From the NCBI GenBank assembly GCA_028277345.1, contig JANQGM010000019.1, forward strand, positions 161,822 to 225,821: DNA of 64,000 bases, in the 5' to 3' direction. The translations under genes and the position numbers were made by a program. A model generated the notes under the pieces. The model made no database searches. It was not told the DNA's origin and saw nothing but the letters and a program-made list of their open reading frames with translations. Positions within the stretch are counted from its first letter, which is position 1; each line of letters starts with the position of its first letter. This DNA is from Candidatus Bipolaricaulota bacterium. Its GTDB lineage: Bacteria > Bipolaricaulota > Bipolaricaulia > UBA7950 > UBA9294. Shown one piece after another: positions 21,672-30,136 of the stretch.

Positions 21672-21831
21672 TAACCATGAAGGGGCGAACGGACCGCTTC
21701 GCTCGTCAGTTCGGTGGAGTTTGGCCGAAGGCGGCCAAACGTCCAGTCGATGACGTATATCAGTTTGCTGTGCATGGAGACGCTGGGTGTAGATTTCGCC
21801 AAACACAATCAGGGATGTGTCCCTCAAATCC
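21672..21831 (+). repeat. Left inverted-repeat arm with nested hairpins
   Basis: Starts TAACCATGAAGGGGCGAAC and ends with a reversed copy of the GAGGGACACAT motif. Inside, GTTTGGCC and GGCCAAAC form a hairpin, and CGAACGGAC/GTCAGTTCG forms an imperfect one. Two consecutive stem-loops recall REP/BIME elements. The arm matches 24873-25032 in reverse complement. Confidence 0.8.
21806..21830 (-). repeat. Short dispersed motif, copy 1 (reverse orientation)
   Basis: On the minus strand this reads GATTTGAGGGACACATCCCTGATT, matching the motif copies at 22834, 24789 and 24878. It forms the inner end of the left arm. Confidence 0.6.
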
Positions 21832-22417: not shown

Positions 22418-22621
22418 ATGGAATCCGTACACGCCACGCATGGATGTTGTGGAGGCGAAGCGAGCGCGCACAAGGTGGCAGCTCATCATTGCTGCTGCGG
22501 CGGGCATCTTTCGCGCCACTTTATCACCAAGCAAGAGCGCCGGGAGGCCCTTGAGCGCTACAAAGAGCAGCTTCAGAAGGAACTCACCGGTGTGGAAGAA
22601 CACCTGCAAGCGATGACGTAG
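22418..22621 (+). CDS. Cys/His-rich small protein with coiled-coil tail
   Basis: A 67-residue protein. The first third is packed with possible metal ligands (HGCCGGE and HHCCCGGH), and the rest is a charged helix (TKQERREALERYKEQLQKEL) likely to form a coiled coil. Similar small proteins with a CC-rich head and an ERxxxLExYxxxLxKE tail are known beside ArsR-type regulators, with no assigned role. Metal storage or delivery is inferred from composition only. It has a near-perfect ribosome binding site (AAGGAGGTGAAC) and is followed by a strong terminator. Confidence 0.8.
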   Translation: MESVHATHGCCGGEASAHKVAAHHCCCGGHLSRHFITKQERREALERYKEQLQKELTGVEEHLQAMT

Positions 22622-22648
22622 CCCTTGAGGGCACGCCCATTCGATACT

Positions 22649-22695
22649 GAGCCCCGAAAGACGCGACGGCGTCCTTCGGGGCTCTTCTTTGTTCT
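22649..22695 (+). terminator. Rho-independent terminator of the ArsR operon
   Basis: GAGCCCCGAA pairs with TTCGGGGCTC, and the stem continues as GACGC/GCGTC around a 4-nt loop after one mismatch. TTCTTTGTTCT follows. Confidence 0.85.
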
Positions 22696-23021
22696 GTCTC
22701 AAAAAACATCGCTTCACTCGCCCGTTCCCAGCAACGCGAAGCATTGCCACTCACTCAAGGACGCCAAGGCGCAGAGAACAGCGAGTCTCCATAACTGAAC
22801 TGCGATTTCACCCTGAAGGACATGAAAGGGGGTGAGGGACGCATACCTGATGGTGTCAGCTGTGGCGTCAACTTCCCGCCGAGTTTCTTGTCAACCCCGA
22901 CCGCGCCATTGTGCCCACGCCTAGTACGGGGGTGACATCAATGATCGCCTGTCTCTGGATGAGATTAATGCGTAGCTTGCGAACTGACAGCTTCGTCCAT
23001 CAGATTGTGGAGGTTCAGTGA
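22696..23021. other. Gene-free stretch upstream of the RT, with repeat debris
   Basis: No protein family is visible. The first half contains ACTCAAGGACGCCAAGGCGCAGAG, which resembles widespread short dispersed repeats, followed at 22834 by a copy of the island's short motif. From about 22854 the composition becomes AT-richer, like the RT gene. This would be the natural place for the promoter and 5' part of an RT-associated non-coding RNA. Confidence 0.5.
22834..22852 (+). repeat. Short dispersed motif, copy 2 (left boundary of RT cassette)
   Basis: GAGGGACGCATACCTGATG. It is in the same orientation as the copy at 24789-24810, so the two form direct repeats around the RT gene and its 5' region. 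Confidence 0.6.
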
Positions 23022-23233
23022 GTGCGTATCGAGCATCCAGGTTTGGCTTTAGAGCCGAAGCTCATCCACTGTCTTCGGCATTCAGAGGGTTCATTCGCGC
23101 GATGCAGACACGTGCTAGCAATTGCAGTTTGCGTAGATTCTCAGCCTACCTTGATCTGCATGCTCCATCGCTATAGGGTAACACTCAAGAACACTAAAGG
23201 GAATATAGTGACAAAAAGCCTGGAGGAGCAATA
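22854..23233 (+). ncRNA. Candidate RT-associated non-coding RNA region
   Basis: About 380 nt between the short motif and the RT start. It includes a perfect 7-bp stem, GCCGAAG at 23054-23060 with CTTCGGC at 23073-23079 and a 12-nt loop. Several defence RT families (DRT2, DRT9) and retrons need a structured RNA encoded just upstream. The position and length fit, but I see no hallmark motif, and an ORF (23022-23234) competes for the same bases. No convincing promoter was found. Confidence 0.3.
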
Positions 23234-23234
23234 A
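23022..23234 (+). CDS. Possible 70-residue protein translationally coupled to the RT
   Basis: GTG start with GGAGG 8 nt upstream. The stop TAA shares its last base with the RT ATG (TAATG), a common coupling arrangement. The residues (MRIEHPGLALEPKLIHCLRH onward) match no family I know and include five Cys and many Arg/His. Its sequence overlaps the stem-loop proposed for a non-coding RNA. A chance open frame is quite possible. The ribosome binding site plus TAATG junction are the only support. Confidence 0.3.
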   Translation: MRIEHPGLALEPKLIHCLRHSEGSFARCRHVLAIAVCVDSQPTLICMLHRYRVTLKNTKGNIVTKSLEEQ

Positions 23235-24763
23235 TGCCTCTTAACTCTGACGTGGATGGATGTGTGACAAGGGCACTGATAGCTGCGTCGGCAGACGAAG
23301 CTAGGAATTACTTCCTGAAAGGAAGCAGCTACTTCAACAAAGATCTCCCTAGTTACATCAGTTTTGAGCACTTGCTTGAGGGTGTCTCGGACATACTCGG
23401 CGAGAGAAATTACAGAGAATTCCAGAACGGACGGCCGAATTACTGCTCGGGGGTAAACTACATCCTCATCGCGAATAAGGATGGTAGGTTCGCGTGGCGC
23501 CCATTCGAGCTTCTTCATCCAGTGATCTATGCGTCTTTGGTTAATACCATTTGCGAACCTTCTGAATGGAACTTGATCACAAACAGACTAGAGTCCTTTC
23601 GGGGTGGTCCGGTGGATTGCTGCAGTTCACTGGCAATGCCTCCCGACGATCAGTCTGACCAAGCGGCACAAGTTAGAAGCTGGTGGCACAGTGTTGAGCA
23701 GAAGTCTATCGCCTACTCTTTGGAGTTCAGCCACATCCTTCATACAGATGTTACCGATTGCTACGGTTCGCTGTACACCCACAGCATCGCTTGGGCATTG
23801 CATACTAAGCGCAAAGCAAAAGAGAGGGTAGGAGATGACTCTCTGGTTGGAAACCGGATCGACAGGCATATCCAGGCCAGTCGCTACGGCCAGACTAATG
23901 GGATCTCTCAGGGATCTGCGCTGATGGATTTCATCGCTGAGATAGTTCTGGGATATGTCGATGATAACATAGCCGCTGAACTAGGCGATCCAACAGATTA
24001 TCGCATTCTTCGATATCGTGACGACTACCGGATATTCGCTAACAGTGACGAACGTGCTGAAGCGATTTTACAAGTGATAAGCAATTGCCTTAGAGACGTG
24101 GGCATGAGGTTAGGGGTCGCGAAGACGACGGAGAGCCGCAATATCGTCGAGGGGGCGATCAAGCAAGACAAACTGGCGGGACTGGAACTACAGGCTCTTG
24201 GTGACGGAAATGCTGGAACGATTCAAAAGCAGCTACTAAGAATGCATAGTTTCGGTCGTCGCTTTCCAAACAGCGGAGCGCTTCGGCGCCTTCTGTCAGA
24301 GATGCATGAGTCAATCTTTGAACAGAAGGAGTGTCCGAGCGATCTCGAGGTTCAGGTGGCAATCGCAGCGGATCTTGGATTCGTATCTCCGCAAGCGTTT
24401 CCGGCGATCGCTGGAATTCTCAGTCATCTTATTTCGCTTGCGTCAAAAGATGACAAAGCAGCTCTTTGGTCGAGAGTTGTAAAGAAGATGAAGCGAGTGC
24501 CTTACAGCGGGTATCTTGAGGTTTGGCTTCAGCGCGTTACAAAACCGTTTGCAGTAGGAATGACTTTCGAGAGCGATGAGCCAATTTGCCAAATAGTGAA
24601 TGGCGAAACAGCAAAACTGTGGGAGAATAGCTGGATTGCCAGCAAGGACCTTCTTAACGTATTGGATGTCTCTAGGATAGTAGTTAGCGCGGCTGATGAG
24701 ATGGCCGAAGTGATCGAGCCAGAAGAGATTGCTCTATTCCGCAACAGTGCTTGGGCATACTAG
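23234..24763 (+). CDS. Reverse transcriptase, unknown-group/defence (DRT-like) type
   Basis: A 509-residue single-protein RT. Motif A is HTDVTDCYGSLYTHSIAWAL (about 170-189, catalytic Asp172). Motif B is QTNGISQGSALMDFIAEIVLG (Ser in place of the usual Pro). Motif C is RYRDDYRIF (YRDD at 261-264, rather than the YADD of group II introns). An N-terminal WRPFELLHPVIYASLV precedes the palm, and an alpha-helical C-terminal region of about 200 residues follows it with no recognised domain. There is no intron maturase X/HNH region. The YTHSI/WALH and YRDD wording resembles UG-type abortive-infection RTs, possibly UG28/DRT9, but I cannot confirm a subtype. GGAGGAG lies 5 nt before the ATG. Confidence 0.85.
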   Translation: MPLNSDVDGCVTRALIAASADEARNYFLKGSSYFNKDLPSYISFEHLLEGVSDILGERNYREFQNGRPNYCSGVNYILIANKDGRFAWRPFELLHPVIYASLVNTICEPSEWNLITNRLESFRGGPVDCCSSLAMPPDDQSDQAAQVRSWWHSVEQKSIAYSLEFSHILHTDVTDCYGSLYTHSIAWALHTKRKAKERVGDDSLVGNRIDRHIQASRYGQTNGISQGSALMDFIAEIVLGYVDDNIAAELGDPTDYRILRYRDDYRIFANSDERAEAILQVISNCLRDVGMRLGVAKTTESRNIVEGAIKQDKLAGLELQALGDGNAGTIQKQLLRMHSFGRRFPNSGALRRLLSEMHESIFEQKECPSDLEVQVAIAADLGFVSPQAFPAIAGILSHLISLASKDDKAALWSRVVKKMKRVPYSGYLEVWLQRVTKPFAVGMTFESDEPICQIVNGETAKLWENSWIASKDLLNVLDVSRIVVSAADEMAEVIEPEEIALFRNSAWAY

Positions 24764-24872
24764 GTGGAATTTGAGGAACACAGAATTCGAGGGACACATA
24801 CCTGATTTCCGTTCGCTGTGTTCACTCCCCTCACACTTGGCGAGAGATAGGCTTTTCACTTTTCATGAGCTT
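24764..24872. other. Short spacer between RT and right arm, with repeated motif
   Basis: Holds an imperfect tandem (GAATTTGAGGAACACA, then GAATTCGAGGGACACA) running into motif copy 3, and about 60 bp with no visible signal. No terminator with a T-run follows the RT stop. Confidence 0.4.
24789..24810 (+). repeat. Short dispersed motif, copy 3 (right boundary of RT cassette)
   Basis: Matches copy 2 at 15-16 of 19 positions by eye (GAGGGACACATACCTGATT) and lies 26 bp after the RT stop. Confidence 0.6.
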
Positions 24873-25032
24873 AAGATTCAGGAACACATTCCTGATTGCC
24901 TTTAGCGAACTCTACTCTCAGCGTCTCCATGCACACCAAACTGATATACGCCACCGACTGGACGTTTGGCCGTTTCCGGCCAAACTCCGCCGAACTGACG
25001 AGCGAAGCGGTCAGTTCGCCCCTTCATGGTTA
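24873..25032 (-). repeat. Right inverted-repeat arm with nested hairpins
   Basis: Reverse complement of the left arm. It contains the perfect hairpin CGAACTGAC/GTCAGTTCG (loop GAGCGAAGCG) and GTTTGGCCG/CGGCCAAAC. Paired base changes keep the stems: the left arm has CGAACGGAC where this arm has the fully paired form. Confidence 0.8.
24878..24900 (+). repeat. Short dispersed motif, copy 4
   Basis: TCAGGAACACATTCCTGATT, a diverged copy that forms the inner end of the right arm and mirrors copy 1. Confidence 0.5.
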
Positions 25033-25168
25033 ATGCGCGAATGGCGCCTCCTCCTTTGAACCGGAGACGGCCATGATGCTACAGACGGTTGCTGAGGGCG
25101 CGAGTTGGGGAATCACGCGCTGATTTCCCCCCTCACATCTGTGACGTGCGCGAAGTACTAGGAGGACG
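25033..25168. other. Intergenic region between island and lipoprotein gene
   Basis: Contains GGGGAATCA-cgcgc-TGATTTCCCC at about 25108-25131, a bulged hairpin followed by CCTCAC. It may end transcription entering from the island. No gene is visible. Confidence 0.4.
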
Positions 25169-26102: not shown

Positions 26103-27005
26103 TTGGATCAGGTTGATTTGAGACGTCAGGAATACGAGGGTCGAATCAATCGTGCGATGGACTACGTGAGAGATAACCTTCGGGGCGATCTGAAGCTTGA
26201 AACCATCGCTCAGGCGGCGAACTTCTCGCCGTTTCACTTTCATCGAACGTTCAAGGCAATGATCGGCGAAACGGTCAATGACTACGTTCGCCGAATCCGC
26301 GCGCAACGTGCGGCGGCCATGCTGATTCACAATCCAACGATGACGATCACGGAGATTGCCATCTCTTGCGGATACTCTTCGTCCTCCTCATTCGCGCGCT
26401 GCTTTCGCCAACACTTTGGGGTCTCTGCGTCGCAGTTTCGAAGCAGCGGACAAGCGTCGCTCGAACGTTTCCGCGAACAGCTGGAAGAGAAGGGTGTGGC
26501 CTTTCACGCGAACAGTCCTGATCGTTCGGACATGGTGTTTCGGGTCGAGGTTCGCGAGGAACCTGAAATGCATGTCGCCTATATCCGGCATGTGGGCAGC
26601 TACAGCGAGATGGGGAAGACGTTTAGCCGGCTCTCGCGATGGGCCGGTCCTCGCAGACTGTTTCGCGACGATACGCGGATGTTGACGATCTATCACGACA
26701 ATCCCGATGTGACCCCGATCGAGCAGTTGCGTTGCGATGTGTGCATGACGGTTCCGGAGGGGACCAAGGTCAAGCGAAACATCGGAAAGATGACGCTGCC
26801 CGGGGGTACTTACGCTGTGGCCTATGCGGAGATCGATGTATCGCAATACGGCGAAGCGTGGGAGCGACTGTTTGGCGATTGGCTTCCGGAATCGGGCTAT
26901 CAGCCGGACGATCGCCCTTGCTATGAGTTGTATTTGAACGATCCGCGGAAACATCCTGAGCACAAACATATCGTCGAAATCTGCGAACCCATTCGCCCGC
27001 TCTAG
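26103..27005 (+). CDS. AraC family regulator with C-terminal GyrI-like ligand domain
   Basis: A 300-residue protein starting at TTG with GAAGGAG 6 nt upstream. The N-terminal third is an AraC DNA-binding domain (INRAMDYVRDNLRGDLKLETIAQAANFSPFHFHRTFKAMIG, then ITEIAISCGYSSSSSFARCFRQHFG). Residues about 145-300 are a GyrI-like/AraC effector-binding domain (FRVEVREEPEMHVAYIRHVGSY ... GGTYAVAYAEID), as in Rob and BmrR-type multidrug sensors. It probably senses a small hydrophobic or cationic compound. The next gene encodes the same C-terminal domain alone. Confidence 0.9.
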   Translation: MDQVDLRRQEYEGRINRAMDYVRDNLRGDLKLETIAQAANFSPFHFHRTFKAMIGETVNDYVRRIRAQRAAAMLIHNPTMTITEIAISCGYSSSSSFARCFRQHFGVSASQFRSSGQASLERFREQLEEKGVAFHANSPDRSDMVFRVEVREEPEMHVAYIRHVGSYSEMGKTFSRLSRWAGPRRLFRDDTRMLTIYHDNPDVTPIEQLRCDVCMTVPEGTKVKRNIGKMTLPGGTYAVAYAEIDVSQYGEAWERLFGDWLPESGYQPDDRPCYELYLNDPRKHPEHKHIVEICEPIRPL

Positions 27006-27125
27006 CCCTTCAAGCAAGATCTGCAAACTCGCAGGCAAGATCCGGCAATGCGAGCGCAACGAATGGAAAGCTTTCGCCGGAGGGAGCAGATAGGCTAGGG
27101 TATCTGAAACGATCACGGAGGAACC

Positions 27126-27599
27126 ATGAAGTTCACAGCCGAAATCAAAGAACTGCCCGAACACAACGTCGCCTACATCCGTCACATCGGACCGTACAAG
27201 GAAATGGGAAAGACCTTCCAGAAGATCTTCGGATGGGCGGGACCCAAAGGTCTCATTCAGTTCCCGAAGACCCAGAGCATGACCGTGTACTACGACAATC
27301 CGGACGAGGTCGCGGAAGCCGAATTGAAGTCCGACGTTTGCCTGACCGTGCCGGAAGGCACGCCCGTGGATGGCGAGGTCAAGACGATGAAGATCCCGGG
27401 CGGCAAGTTCGCGGTGGCGCATGTCGAGATCGATCCATCGGAGTACGGCGAGGCGTGGGACAAGCTGGTTGGGGAATGGATGCCCGCGCAGGGACTGGAG
27501 TTCGATCCCGGCCGCCTGTGCTACGAGTGGTACATGAACGATCCGGAGCAGCATCCCGAGAAGAAGCACATCGTCGATATCTGCGAACCTATCAAGTAG
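27126..27599 (+). CDS. Stand-alone GyrI-like small-molecule-binding protein
   Basis: A 157-residue paralogue of the C-terminal half of the AraC regulator just upstream: ELPEHNVAYIRHIGPYKEMGKTF, DNPDEVAEAELKSDVCLTVPEG, GGKFAVAHVEIDPSEYGEAW and PEKKHIVDICEPIK all align closely. Free GyrI-like proteins include gyrase inhibitors and cyclopropanoid cyclase hydrolases, and can act as drug sponges. It probably arose by duplication of the sensor domain. ACGGAGGAACC precedes the ATG. Confidence 0.88.
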   Translation: MKFTAEIKELPEHNVAYIRHIGPYKEMGKTFQKIFGWAGPKGLIQFPKTQSMTVYYDNPDEVAEAELKSDVCLTVPEGTPVDGEVKTMKIPGGKFAVAHVEIDPSEYGEAWDKLVGEWMPAQGLEFDPGRLCYEWYMNDPEQHPEKKHIVDICEPIK

Positions 27600-27628
27600 T
27601 TACGACGATACGGAATGTATCGAACGAT

Positions 27629-27664
27629 CGGGGCGGGCCGTTGAGCTCGCCCCGTTTCTCGTTT
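27629..27664 (+). terminator. Rho-independent terminator after the GyrI-like gene
   Basis: CGGGGCG at 27629-27635 pairs with CGCCCCG at 27648-27654, followed by TTTCTCGTTT. Confidence 0.75.
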
Positions 27665-27761
27665 GAGTGCGCTTCTTACGGCGGGTACGATAGAAGCAGG
27701 CTCAGGCGATCATGCGTGGGCTGTCGTTGTCTCTCTTCTTCACCTCTGTAAAGGAGGGCCG

Positions 27762-28937
27762 ATGAACACCCGCACCTTCGGCATGCTGGAATGGAAGCCG
27801 TCCGCACTGGGATTCGGGGCCATGCGTTTGCCGACACGGTCGGAAAAGCGTCCGGGTATCAGTCCCCATCAGATGGAGGATGTCGATGGACCCCGTGCGA
27901 TTGAACTCATTCGCCGGGCGATCGATCTGGGCATCAATTATGTGGACACCGCGCGGCCCTATCATCAGGGCGAAAGCGAGCGAATTGTGGGCAGCGCACT
28001 TCGCAATGGCTACCGCTACAAGGTTAAGCTTGCCACCAAGCTCACGTTCAGTCCGAGGTGGATTCGAAGTGCGGATGACTTTGACCCTTTTCTGGACGAT
28101 CAGTTGAAACGTCTTCAGACGGACCACATCGACTTCTATCTGCTGCATGCCCTACAGAAGACGCGATGGCCCGCGCTTCGTGAGATGGGCGTTCTGGATT
28201 GGGCGGAGCGAGCGAAGGCGGACGGACGAATTGGGCATCTGGGCTTTTCGTTTCATGATGACTATCCGCTGTTCGAAGAGATTGTCGATGCCTACGACTG
28301 GACGTTTTGCCAGATCTTGTACAACTACATGGACATCGATTTCCAGGCTGGAACGCGGGGACTGAGGTACGCGGCGTCGAAGGGCCTGGCGGTCTCAGTG
28401 ATGGAGCCGCTTCGTGGCGGGCAGTTGGCGCGAACGCCGCCGGAAACGGTGGCCAGCATCTGGGAGGAAGCGGATGAGGTGCGAACGCCGGTGGAATGGG
28501 CCTTGCGTTGGTTGTGGCATCAGTCGGAGGTTTCGATTGTCCTGTCCGGCATGTCGACGTTGGAACAACTCGAGCAGAACGTGAAGAGTGCGTCGAGTGC
28601 AGAGGCCGGATGCTTGTCAGGGGATGAGCTCGCTCGATACGATCGCGTCCGAGCCGCCTATCGCGCGCTGTCTCCGATTCCGTGCTCGAACTGCCGGTAT
28701 TGCCAACCCTGCCCGCATGGCGTTCCGATTCCGGAGATCTTTGCCCTCTACAACGAGAAGGTCATGTACGGCGAGCATGGTCAAGGATTCACGGCGTTTT
28801 CGGATTACGGCGCATCGCGGTTGCTGACCAAGGAGTGCATTGCCTGTGGCGCGTGCGAGGCTGCGTGCCCCCAGCAGATCAAGATCATCGAGCGCCTCCG
28901 CGATGCGCGGACCTATTTGCTGGGGGAGTCGGCTTGA
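27762..28937 (+). CDS. Aldo/keto reductase with C-terminal ferredoxin-type domain, copy 1
   Basis: A 391-residue protein. Residues about 1-280 form the TIM-barrel aldo/keto reductase (LGFGAMRLP, NYVDTARPYHQGESE with catalytic Asp/Tyr, DFYLLHAL, GHLGFSFHDDY). The last 110 residues add SNCRYCQPCPHGV and ECIACGACEAACPQQI, Cys patterns for iron-sulfur clusters. This is the 'predicted oxidoreductase of the aldo/keto reductase family' with a 4Fe-4S tail, probably electron-linked rather than simply NADPH-dependent. Substrate unknown. AAGGAGGGCCG precedes the ATG. Confidence 0.9.
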   Translation: MNTRTFGMLEWKPSALGFGAMRLPTRSEKRPGISPHQMEDVDGPRAIELIRRAIDLGINYVDTARPYHQGESERIVGSALRNGYRYKVKLATKLTFSPRWIRSADDFDPFLDDQLKRLQTDHIDFYLLHALQKTRWPALREMGVLDWAERAKADGRIGHLGFSFHDDYPLFEEIVDAYDWTFCQILYNYMDIDFQAGTRGLRYAASKGLAVSVMEPLRGGQLARTPPETVASIWEEADEVRTPVEWALRWLWHQSEVSIVLSGMSTLEQLEQNVKSASSAEAGCLSGDELARYDRVRAAYRALSPIPCSNCRYCQPCPHGVPIPEIFALYNEKVMYGEHGQGFTAFSDYGASRLLTKECIACGACEAACPQQIKIIERLRDARTYLLGESA

Positions 28938-28987
28938 AAGACCTCGGCGTTCCGAGGGAAGATCGAACGACGGATGAGAGGAGTTCC

Positions 28988-30136
28988 ATGCAATATCGAA
29001 GTTTCGGCAAGTTGGACTGGAAACCGTCCGCGCTGGGTTTCGGCGCGATGCGGTTACCGACGACAGACACGGATCCGGCGAATATTGACGAAGCCCTGGC
29101 GACGCGGATGATCCGTACGGCGATCGACGCCGGCGTGAATTACGTTGATACGGCGTGGCCCTACCACAAAGAACAGTCCGAGCCGCTTGTCGGACAGGCC
29201 CTACAGGATGGCTATCGCGACAAGGTCAAGCTGGCCACGAAAATGCCGTCCTGGCTCATCAAGGAACCGGCGGATTTTGATGTGCACCTGGACATCCAGC
29301 TCGACCGGTTGAAGACCGATCGTATCGACTTTTACCTCCTTCATGCGCTGAACAAGACCTACTGGCCCAACCTCCGCGATCTCGGCGTGTTCGACTGGGC
29401 GGAAAAGGCGATCGCCGATGGTCGAATCGGCCACCTTGGATTCTCGTTCCACGACGAGCTCGCGTTGTTTAAGGAGATCGTCGATGCCTACGACTGGACG
29501 TTCTGCCAGATCATGTACAACTACATGGACACGGATTTTCAGGCCGGGCGCGAAGGACTGCAGTATGCGGCCGGAAAGGGCCTCGCTGTCGTCATCATGG
29601 AGCCGTTGCGTGGCGGCTCGCTGACACAACAAGCCCCCCAGCCGGTGGCCGATCTGTGGGCCGGCGCGTCAGAGGAGCGTTCTCAGGCCGATTGGGCGCT
29701 CCAGTGGCTTTGGAATCAGCCGGAGGTCTCGCTGCTGCTGTCCGGGATGTCCGAAATGAAACACGTCGAGGAGAACCTGGAAAGTGCCTCGGCGTCCGGG
29801 ATTGGCACACTCTCTGCTGAGGAACTGGACCTGGTGGAGCGCGTTAGCAAGGCCTACCGCACGCTGTGTCCCATTCCGTGCACGAACTGCAAGTACTGCA
29901 TGCCGTGTCCGAGCGGGGTGAACATCCCTCGCATCTTCTCCATCTACAACGACTACAAGATGTACGGCGACGAGGCGATGGCCAAGCAGCGGTACAACCA
30001 ATTCATGAGTGCGGAGAATCGCGCCGATAACTGCGTGGAATGCGGGCAATGCGAAGCGGCATGCCCTCAGCAGATCGAGATTATCGATTGGCTGAAGAAG
30101 GTTCACGAGTTCCTGACCCTTCCCGCAAACTCATGA
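28988..30136 (+). CDS. Aldo/keto reductase with C-terminal ferredoxin-type domain, copy 2
   Basis: A 382-residue paralogue of the gene 50 bp upstream. The two share SFG(K/M)L(D/E)WKPSALGFGAMRLP, NYVDTAWPYHKEQSE, FYLLHALNKT, the cluster motif CTNCKYCMPCPSGV and CVECGQCEAACPQQI. They differ across the body, so both were probably kept for different substrates or as a heteromer. GAGAGGAG precedes the ATG at 28988. The longer frame from 28682 overlaps copy 1 and is rejected. The stop overlaps the RIO kinase start by ATGA. Confidence 0.9.
   Translation: MQYRSFGKLDWKPSALGFGAMRLPTTDTDPANIDEALATRMIRTAIDAGVNYVDTAWPYHKEQSEPLVGQALQDGYRDKVKLATKMPSWLIKEPADFDVHLDIQLDRLKTDRIDFYLLHALNKTYWPNLRDLGVFDWAEKAIADGRIGHLGFSFHDELALFKEIVDAYDWTFCQIMYNYMDTDFQAGREGLQYAAGKGLAVVIMEPLRGGSLTQQAPQPVADLWAGASEERSQADWALQWLWNQPEVSLLLSGMSEMKHVEENLESASASGIGTLSAEELDLVERVSKAYRTLCPIPCTNCKYCMPCPSGVNIPRIFSIYNDYKMYGDEAMAKQRYNQFMSAENRADNCVECGQCEAACPQQIEIIDWLKKVHEFLTLPANS

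Follow-up and report, generated by a model that had tools for sequence, protein, structure and literature searches.

The window analysed here, a 64,000-nucleotide stretch of contig JANQGM010000019.1 from a Candidatus Bipolaricaulota bacterium, harbours, as a preliminary description of the sequence had claimed, a gene for a 509-residue reverse transcriptase (RT); its frame is open from end to end, without stops. Hits of a neighbouring AraC-GyrI protein also make this phylum the probable host: of the at least 120 listed, the four with an organism name all belong to Candidatus Bipolaricaulota or Bipolaricaulia. Pfam resolved an RVT_1 match (E 2.9e-10) and no maturase domain in the protein, in agreement with the YRDD and GISQGS motifs (the latter at residues 223–228) read from the sequence earlier. 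The predicted structure is helical after about residue 304, bearing out the helical C-terminal region that had been described, and the two 1-kb segments holding the gene have the lowest G+C contents of 64 (0.495 and 0.497), consistent with the claim of a gene richer in AT. The features of the locus are collected in Table 1.

On sequence and predicted fold, the window RT is a clear member of the Abi-P2 family, that is, a known kind and no new branch. First, the Abi-P2 profile scored 606.7 bits over residues 14–506, followed by RT_UG14 (165.8), Drt6 (155.9), Drt4 (135.7) and AbiK (92.6). Second, the predicted fold consists of an RT palm and fingers with an Abi-P2 helical domain and no thumb, and the comparison of the C-terminal domain that had been proposed earlier aligned it with that of Abi-P2 (PDB 7r08) up to residue 502. 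Third, a homologue search in which 4898 proteins passed among 7999 candidates scored (best non-self match 71% identical and full-length) gave 92 confirmed genome loci, 80 of which were kept; loci L001–L012, with 51–66% identity to the window protein, bear the labels Abawacabacteria, Chloroflexota, Pseudomonadota, Kiritimatiellota, Myxococcota and Cyanobacteriota; L047 is absent from the RT table. In a quickly built tree (87 rows; loci with an RT frame below 420 aa left out), the window fell in a 14-row clade with a Shimodaira–Hasegawa-like approximate likelihood ratio (SH-aLRT) of 100, its inner order being partly unresolved. The P2 sequences join this tree near long outgroup branches, where their placement is unsure. 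Profile, alignment, tree and fold all give Abi-P2, and the suggested position near DRT9/UG28 or on a new branch is thus abandoned. The protein is neither a group II intron nor a retron RT, as had been expected, with the maturase model TIGR04416 at 41.5 bits against a cut-off of 300 and the only retron match, NF038233, at 26.5 bits against 235.

The active-site positions were followed in an alignment of 205 sequences, of which 120 are database proteins and the other 85 come from the window, the loci and the records; redundancy was kept, and the window protein appears twice. Asp172, Arg262, Asp263 and Asp264 are invariant, and position 261 is Tyr in 202 sequences and Phe in three. By alignment counting, Tyr61, Tyr46 and Tyr282 of Abi-P2 correspond to Tyr41, Tyr26 and Tyr261 of the window RT. 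Position 41 is Tyr in 202 of the 205 sequences and a gap in the other three, while position 26 is variable (His in 122, Phe in 50, Tyr in 26). Figiel et al. 2022 (PMC9508834) describe Abi-P2 as a trimer whose DNA synthesis is template-free and protein-primed, requiring Tyr61 and not Tyr46. The retention of the needed tyrosine, together with the variability of the dispensable one, fits the published Abi-P2 result.

Table 1. Features of the RT locus, in window coordinates
Feature	Position	Strand	Basis or remark
Abi-P2 family RT-like polymerase gene, 509 aa	23234..24763	+	Open reading frame, profile, alignment, fold
GGAGG, likely ribosome-binding sequence	23222..23226	+	Sequence; 8 nt 5' of the ATG
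Tyr41 codon, aligned to priming Tyr61 of Abi-P2	23354..23356	+	Alignment; PMC9508834
Catalytic Asp172 codon (motif A)	23747..23749	+	Invariant, 205/205 aligned sequences
YRDD active-site motif, residues 261–264	24014..24025	+	Alignment
Helical C-terminal domain, about residues 311–500	24164..24733	+	Predicted structure; 7r08 alignment
Stretch without DNA similarity to same-genus genomes, holding the RT	22622..25167		Similarity stops at 22621, resumes at 25168
GAGGGACRCATACCTGAT motif copy, judged outside the RT system	22834..22851	+	18 nt; ends 383 bp before the start codon
Second GAGGGACRCATACCTGAT motif copy, judged outside the RT system	24789..24806	+	18 nt; 26 bp after the stop
Left arm of 156-nt inverted repeat (89%), with a motif copy	21672..21827	-	Dispersed genus repeat, judged unrelated to the RT
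Right arm of 156-nt inverted repeat	24877..25032	+	Same repeat

The gene is rare among related genomes. An RT search of 60 genomes matched three, namely the host genome itself (completeness 89.62%), a genome from a different genus in the family (at 64%) and a third in which the match was weak and partial (residues 193–298); none of the 28 good-quality genomes among the 60 (90%/5% mark) had a match. The same-genus genome G002 carries the ABC-F, phosphoesterase, ArsR and Cys/His-rich genes in the same order as the window, with no RT in the 1.7 kb between the Cys/His-rich gene and the contig end, and G004, also of the genus, keeps the right-hand genes from a small lipoprotein-like one through an aldo/keto reductase; no single relative has both flanks side by side. 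The breaks in DNA similarity on either side of the gene (Table 1) place the RT inside an acquired segment no longer than 2.5 kb. Foreign base composition and rarity among relatives indicate that it was probably gained by horizontal transfer, which agrees with its earlier description as transferable.

Our reading, to which we assign a probability of about 85%, is that the gene encodes a stand-alone RT-like polymerase of the Abi-P2 family, likely acting in phage defence by template-free DNA synthesis from Tyr41 and probably horizontally gained. Its computed basis is the full-length match to Abi-P2 in sequence and predicted fold, the kept catalytic and priming positions, the foreign composition and the rarity, and the family match is in keeping with the single-gene defence-type RT proposed before. 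Several observations weigh against this reading. NCBIfam returned only sub-cut-off matches and none to AbiP2, the protein shares no more than about 30% identity with the characterised Abi-P2, presence and absence were scored on metagenome-assembled genomes, many of them incomplete (28 of the 60 pass the 90%/5% mark), and the gene is surrounded by metabolic genes without defence neighbours.

By analogy with the family, the window RT would form a trimer through its helical domain and attach the initial nucleotide to Tyr41. From there a single DNA strand without a defined sequence would be extended in a channel between the two lobes, the untemplated strand being held by the helical domain, and an RNA partner would not be needed. 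The phage may be blocked, perhaps via interference with phage recombinases, which is the outcome we favour; Rad52-like phage recombinases are cited as the target of a related RT (PMC8934634).

The need for an RNA partner separates this reading from a templated defence RT like DRT9/UG28, DRT2 or DRT10, copying a neighbouring non-coding RNA. Such RNAs are reported to be used by related defence RTs (PMC12483538, PMC12632851) and required by DRT9 (PMC12489045), and a long gap (22622–23233) precedes the window gene. We nevertheless regard this alternative as highly improbable, since Abi-P2, which the protein matches in both sequence and fold, synthesises DNA without a template. DRT9 has only the RT core in common with the window protein, and its entries lie at rank 24 and below in the fold search (template modelling score, TM, 0.25–0.34), far behind Abi-P2, although rank absence by itself excludes nothing. 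Rfam gave no match below E 0.19, and the upstream RNA folds no better than shuffled sequence (z 0.91; 166 of 200 shuffles as good). Alignment of the upstream flanks of the 14 clade members averaged 21.8 (91 pairs) against 17.8 for shuffled flanks, falling to 18.4 without the sister pair L005/L008, and the downstream flanks averaged 18.6 (66 pairs) against 17.7; these shuffles were single-base, and a fast-evolving RNA could escape the Rfam, flank and folding tests alike.

The repeats beside the gene had been read as the bounds of a cassette. The two same-orientation copies of GAGGGACRCATACCTGAT are present, the second 26 bp past the stop. Two further copies occur at 21807–21823 (minus strand, approximately 1.4 kb before the RT start) and 24881–24897 (plus strand), both within the two arms of an inverted repeat of 156 nt that encloses the ArsR gene, the Cys/His-rich gene and the RT, its left arm lying two genes to the left of the RT. 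With four copies, two of them in these arms, and the left direct copy 383 bp off the start codon, the boundary claim is not borne out. That the gene is cargo of a small transposon or cassette ending in the 18-nt repeats or the inverted repeat is in our view highly improbable, even though the arms bracket the gene and the motif clusters far above chance (the window has four matches to the 17-nt core at three or fewer mismatches, whereas 100 shuffles averaged 0.10 and never gave four). At one mismatch or fewer, the motif is confined in the host genome to two places, both at this locus, and is found in 4 of 39 other related genomes; relatives carry it elsewhere, in G012 and G014 as inverted pairs 50–130 nt apart. 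Against a cassette, 84 homologue loci hold no good copy (two matches, both with three mismatches), and the left arm lies beyond the ArsR and Cys/His-rich genes, which stand in the same order in G002 without an RT. The inverted repeat occurs twice in the host genome; elsewhere in the genus, three of the four other genomes have pieces of it that are not near an RT, and G004 has a 46-nt piece. We therefore rejected the direct repeats as cassette ends, as dispersed motifs that do not accompany the RT gene elsewhere, and the inverted repeat as transposon ends because its left arm lies beyond host genes. Related motif copies near one of the five Y1-transposase loci of the host genome hint at repetitive extragenic palindromic (REP) elements, and the repeats are most likely unrelated to the RT.

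The surroundings of the gene bear on whether it functions at all. A decayed or silent copy could be suspected from a lone gene amid metabolic genes whose promoter matches are not above chance (two against 2.1 expected). We hold this to be very unlikely given the open full-length frame, the kept catalytic and priming positions, the good ribosome-binding sequence and full-length homologues of up to 71% identity; the window RT is a real and probably functional defence gene. A defence island around it was rejected. PADLOC at 1e-10, run on 23 chosen open reading frames of 10286–39082 without the RT, matched six families only (mad3 in two members; AriA, mad8, AbiLi and two Csa3 models in one each), which we read as generic ATPase and regulator similarities, the assignment of frames to families being absent from the output, and the neighbours are metabolic. 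The window contains no tRNA. The 67-aa Cys/His-rich protein (22418–22621), without a Pfam match, directly follows the ArsR regulator, and the pair is kept in G002. Further along, 26103–30136 holds apparent tandem duplicates, with a pair of genes of GyrI-like similarity and a pair resembling aldo/keto reductases, each pair consecutive.

The homologues gave a mixed answer to the question of defence context. At least two of the three type I restriction genes lie near the RT in 11 of 84 loci (83 plus the window; BLAST clusters), and one CRISPR I-C operon was found, while the window itself sits in no defence island. The housekeeping context that had been named as a refutation thus applies to the window's own neighbours and not to the homologues overall. 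In L022, L023 and L032 the specificity gene and the restriction gene have the RT directly between them. For example, in L022 (4824–12656) all three subunits (methylase, specificity, restriction) are confirmed by Pfam, and the first base of the RT frame is shared with the end of the specificity gene. Abi-P2-like RTs are also found in or beside type I restriction operons in L013, L015, L023, L032, L048, L052 and L062, with gene-end overlaps in L013, L014, L022 and L023. An AbiH gene lies between part of the restriction operon and the RT in L048 (6885–7940). Among the 104 open reading frames of at least 100 aa within 5 kb in the 12 closest loci, no shown family (25 of 44) has more than two members, and Pfam likewise gave none. 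The literature searched gave no confirmed account of Abi-P2 within type I restriction operons; Kojima and Kanehisa (2008) may have described RT genes next to restriction genes. In L067 (3559–11750), cas4 and cas1 of a type I-C CRISPR locus have the RT between them, an arrangement already noted for Haemophilus in PMC8934634.

Close relatives of the window RT seem to travel as integron cassettes. attC-like sites directly follow the RT stop in 3 of the 12 closest loci, L001, L003 (9526–9597) and L004 (9502–9573). The clearest case is L001 (3803–7283), where two of four sites of 129–130 nt directly flank the RT; the four have a core in common and, judged by eye, one identical bulged base when the bottom strand is folded. 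The L003 site scores weakly, 3 of 30 shuffles reaching its value, and L021, L035, L041 and L050 hold candidates only. RT flanks beat all 30 shuffles in 19 of 163 cases against 5.3 expected, several being unconvincing by eye, and the first version of the home-made finder also scored 2 of 6 shuffled controls as hits. A whole-locus scan yielded 24 hits against 13.7 in shuffles and was strand-symmetric by construction, which voids a strand comparison. Integron integrase matches were weak in 14 of 14 genomes and 14 of 14 controls, exceeding the cut-off in one of the 14, the L007 genome. The window RT itself gave no sign of being such a cassette, its flank scores falling in the shuffled range and 18 kb of sequence yielding no attC-like site above threshold, and the best integrase match in the host genome scored 48.7 bits where the cut-off is 265. 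In the literature searched, which left subscription papers mostly outside, 'integron' was not found together with 'AbiP2' or 'Abi-P2', and we claim no priority.

Among known systems, the window RT most resembles Abi-P2 of P2-like prophages (ORF570 of P2-EC30; PDB 7r08), sharing whole-length homology, the two-domain fold, YRDD, the catalytic Asp and the priming-tyrosine position. It differs in its separate clade, in motif B (GISQGS versus GIPLGS) and in being a lone chromosomal gene rather than a prophage gene. Identity to DRT6 (UG12), DRT4 (UG15) and AbiK is 12–19%. The Abi-P2-like RT of type I-C CRISPR loci is of the same family, whereas the window gene has no cas neighbours. The P2 protein is reported to confer resistance to phage T5 (PMC11077055).

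Taken alone, the window gene is unremarkable: it adds another member, its frame apparently intact, to the Abi-P2 family, from a phylum on which few molecular studies exist. More speculatively, and as an idea we think rather unlikely, Abi-P2-type polymerases might constitute a plug-in defence module. The window clade would spread across phyla as a single gene, partly in integron cassettes, while sister clades would be built into I-C CRISPR operons and, with the RT placed between the specificity and the restriction subunit, into those of type I restriction, as a second line firing when DNA cutting fails. If so, the P2-prophage protein behind the biochemistry would be a divergent member of a large family whose other members reside in integron cassettes, type I restriction operons and a CRISPR operon, and this would offer testable ideas on how Abi-P2-type polymerases travel and what triggers them.
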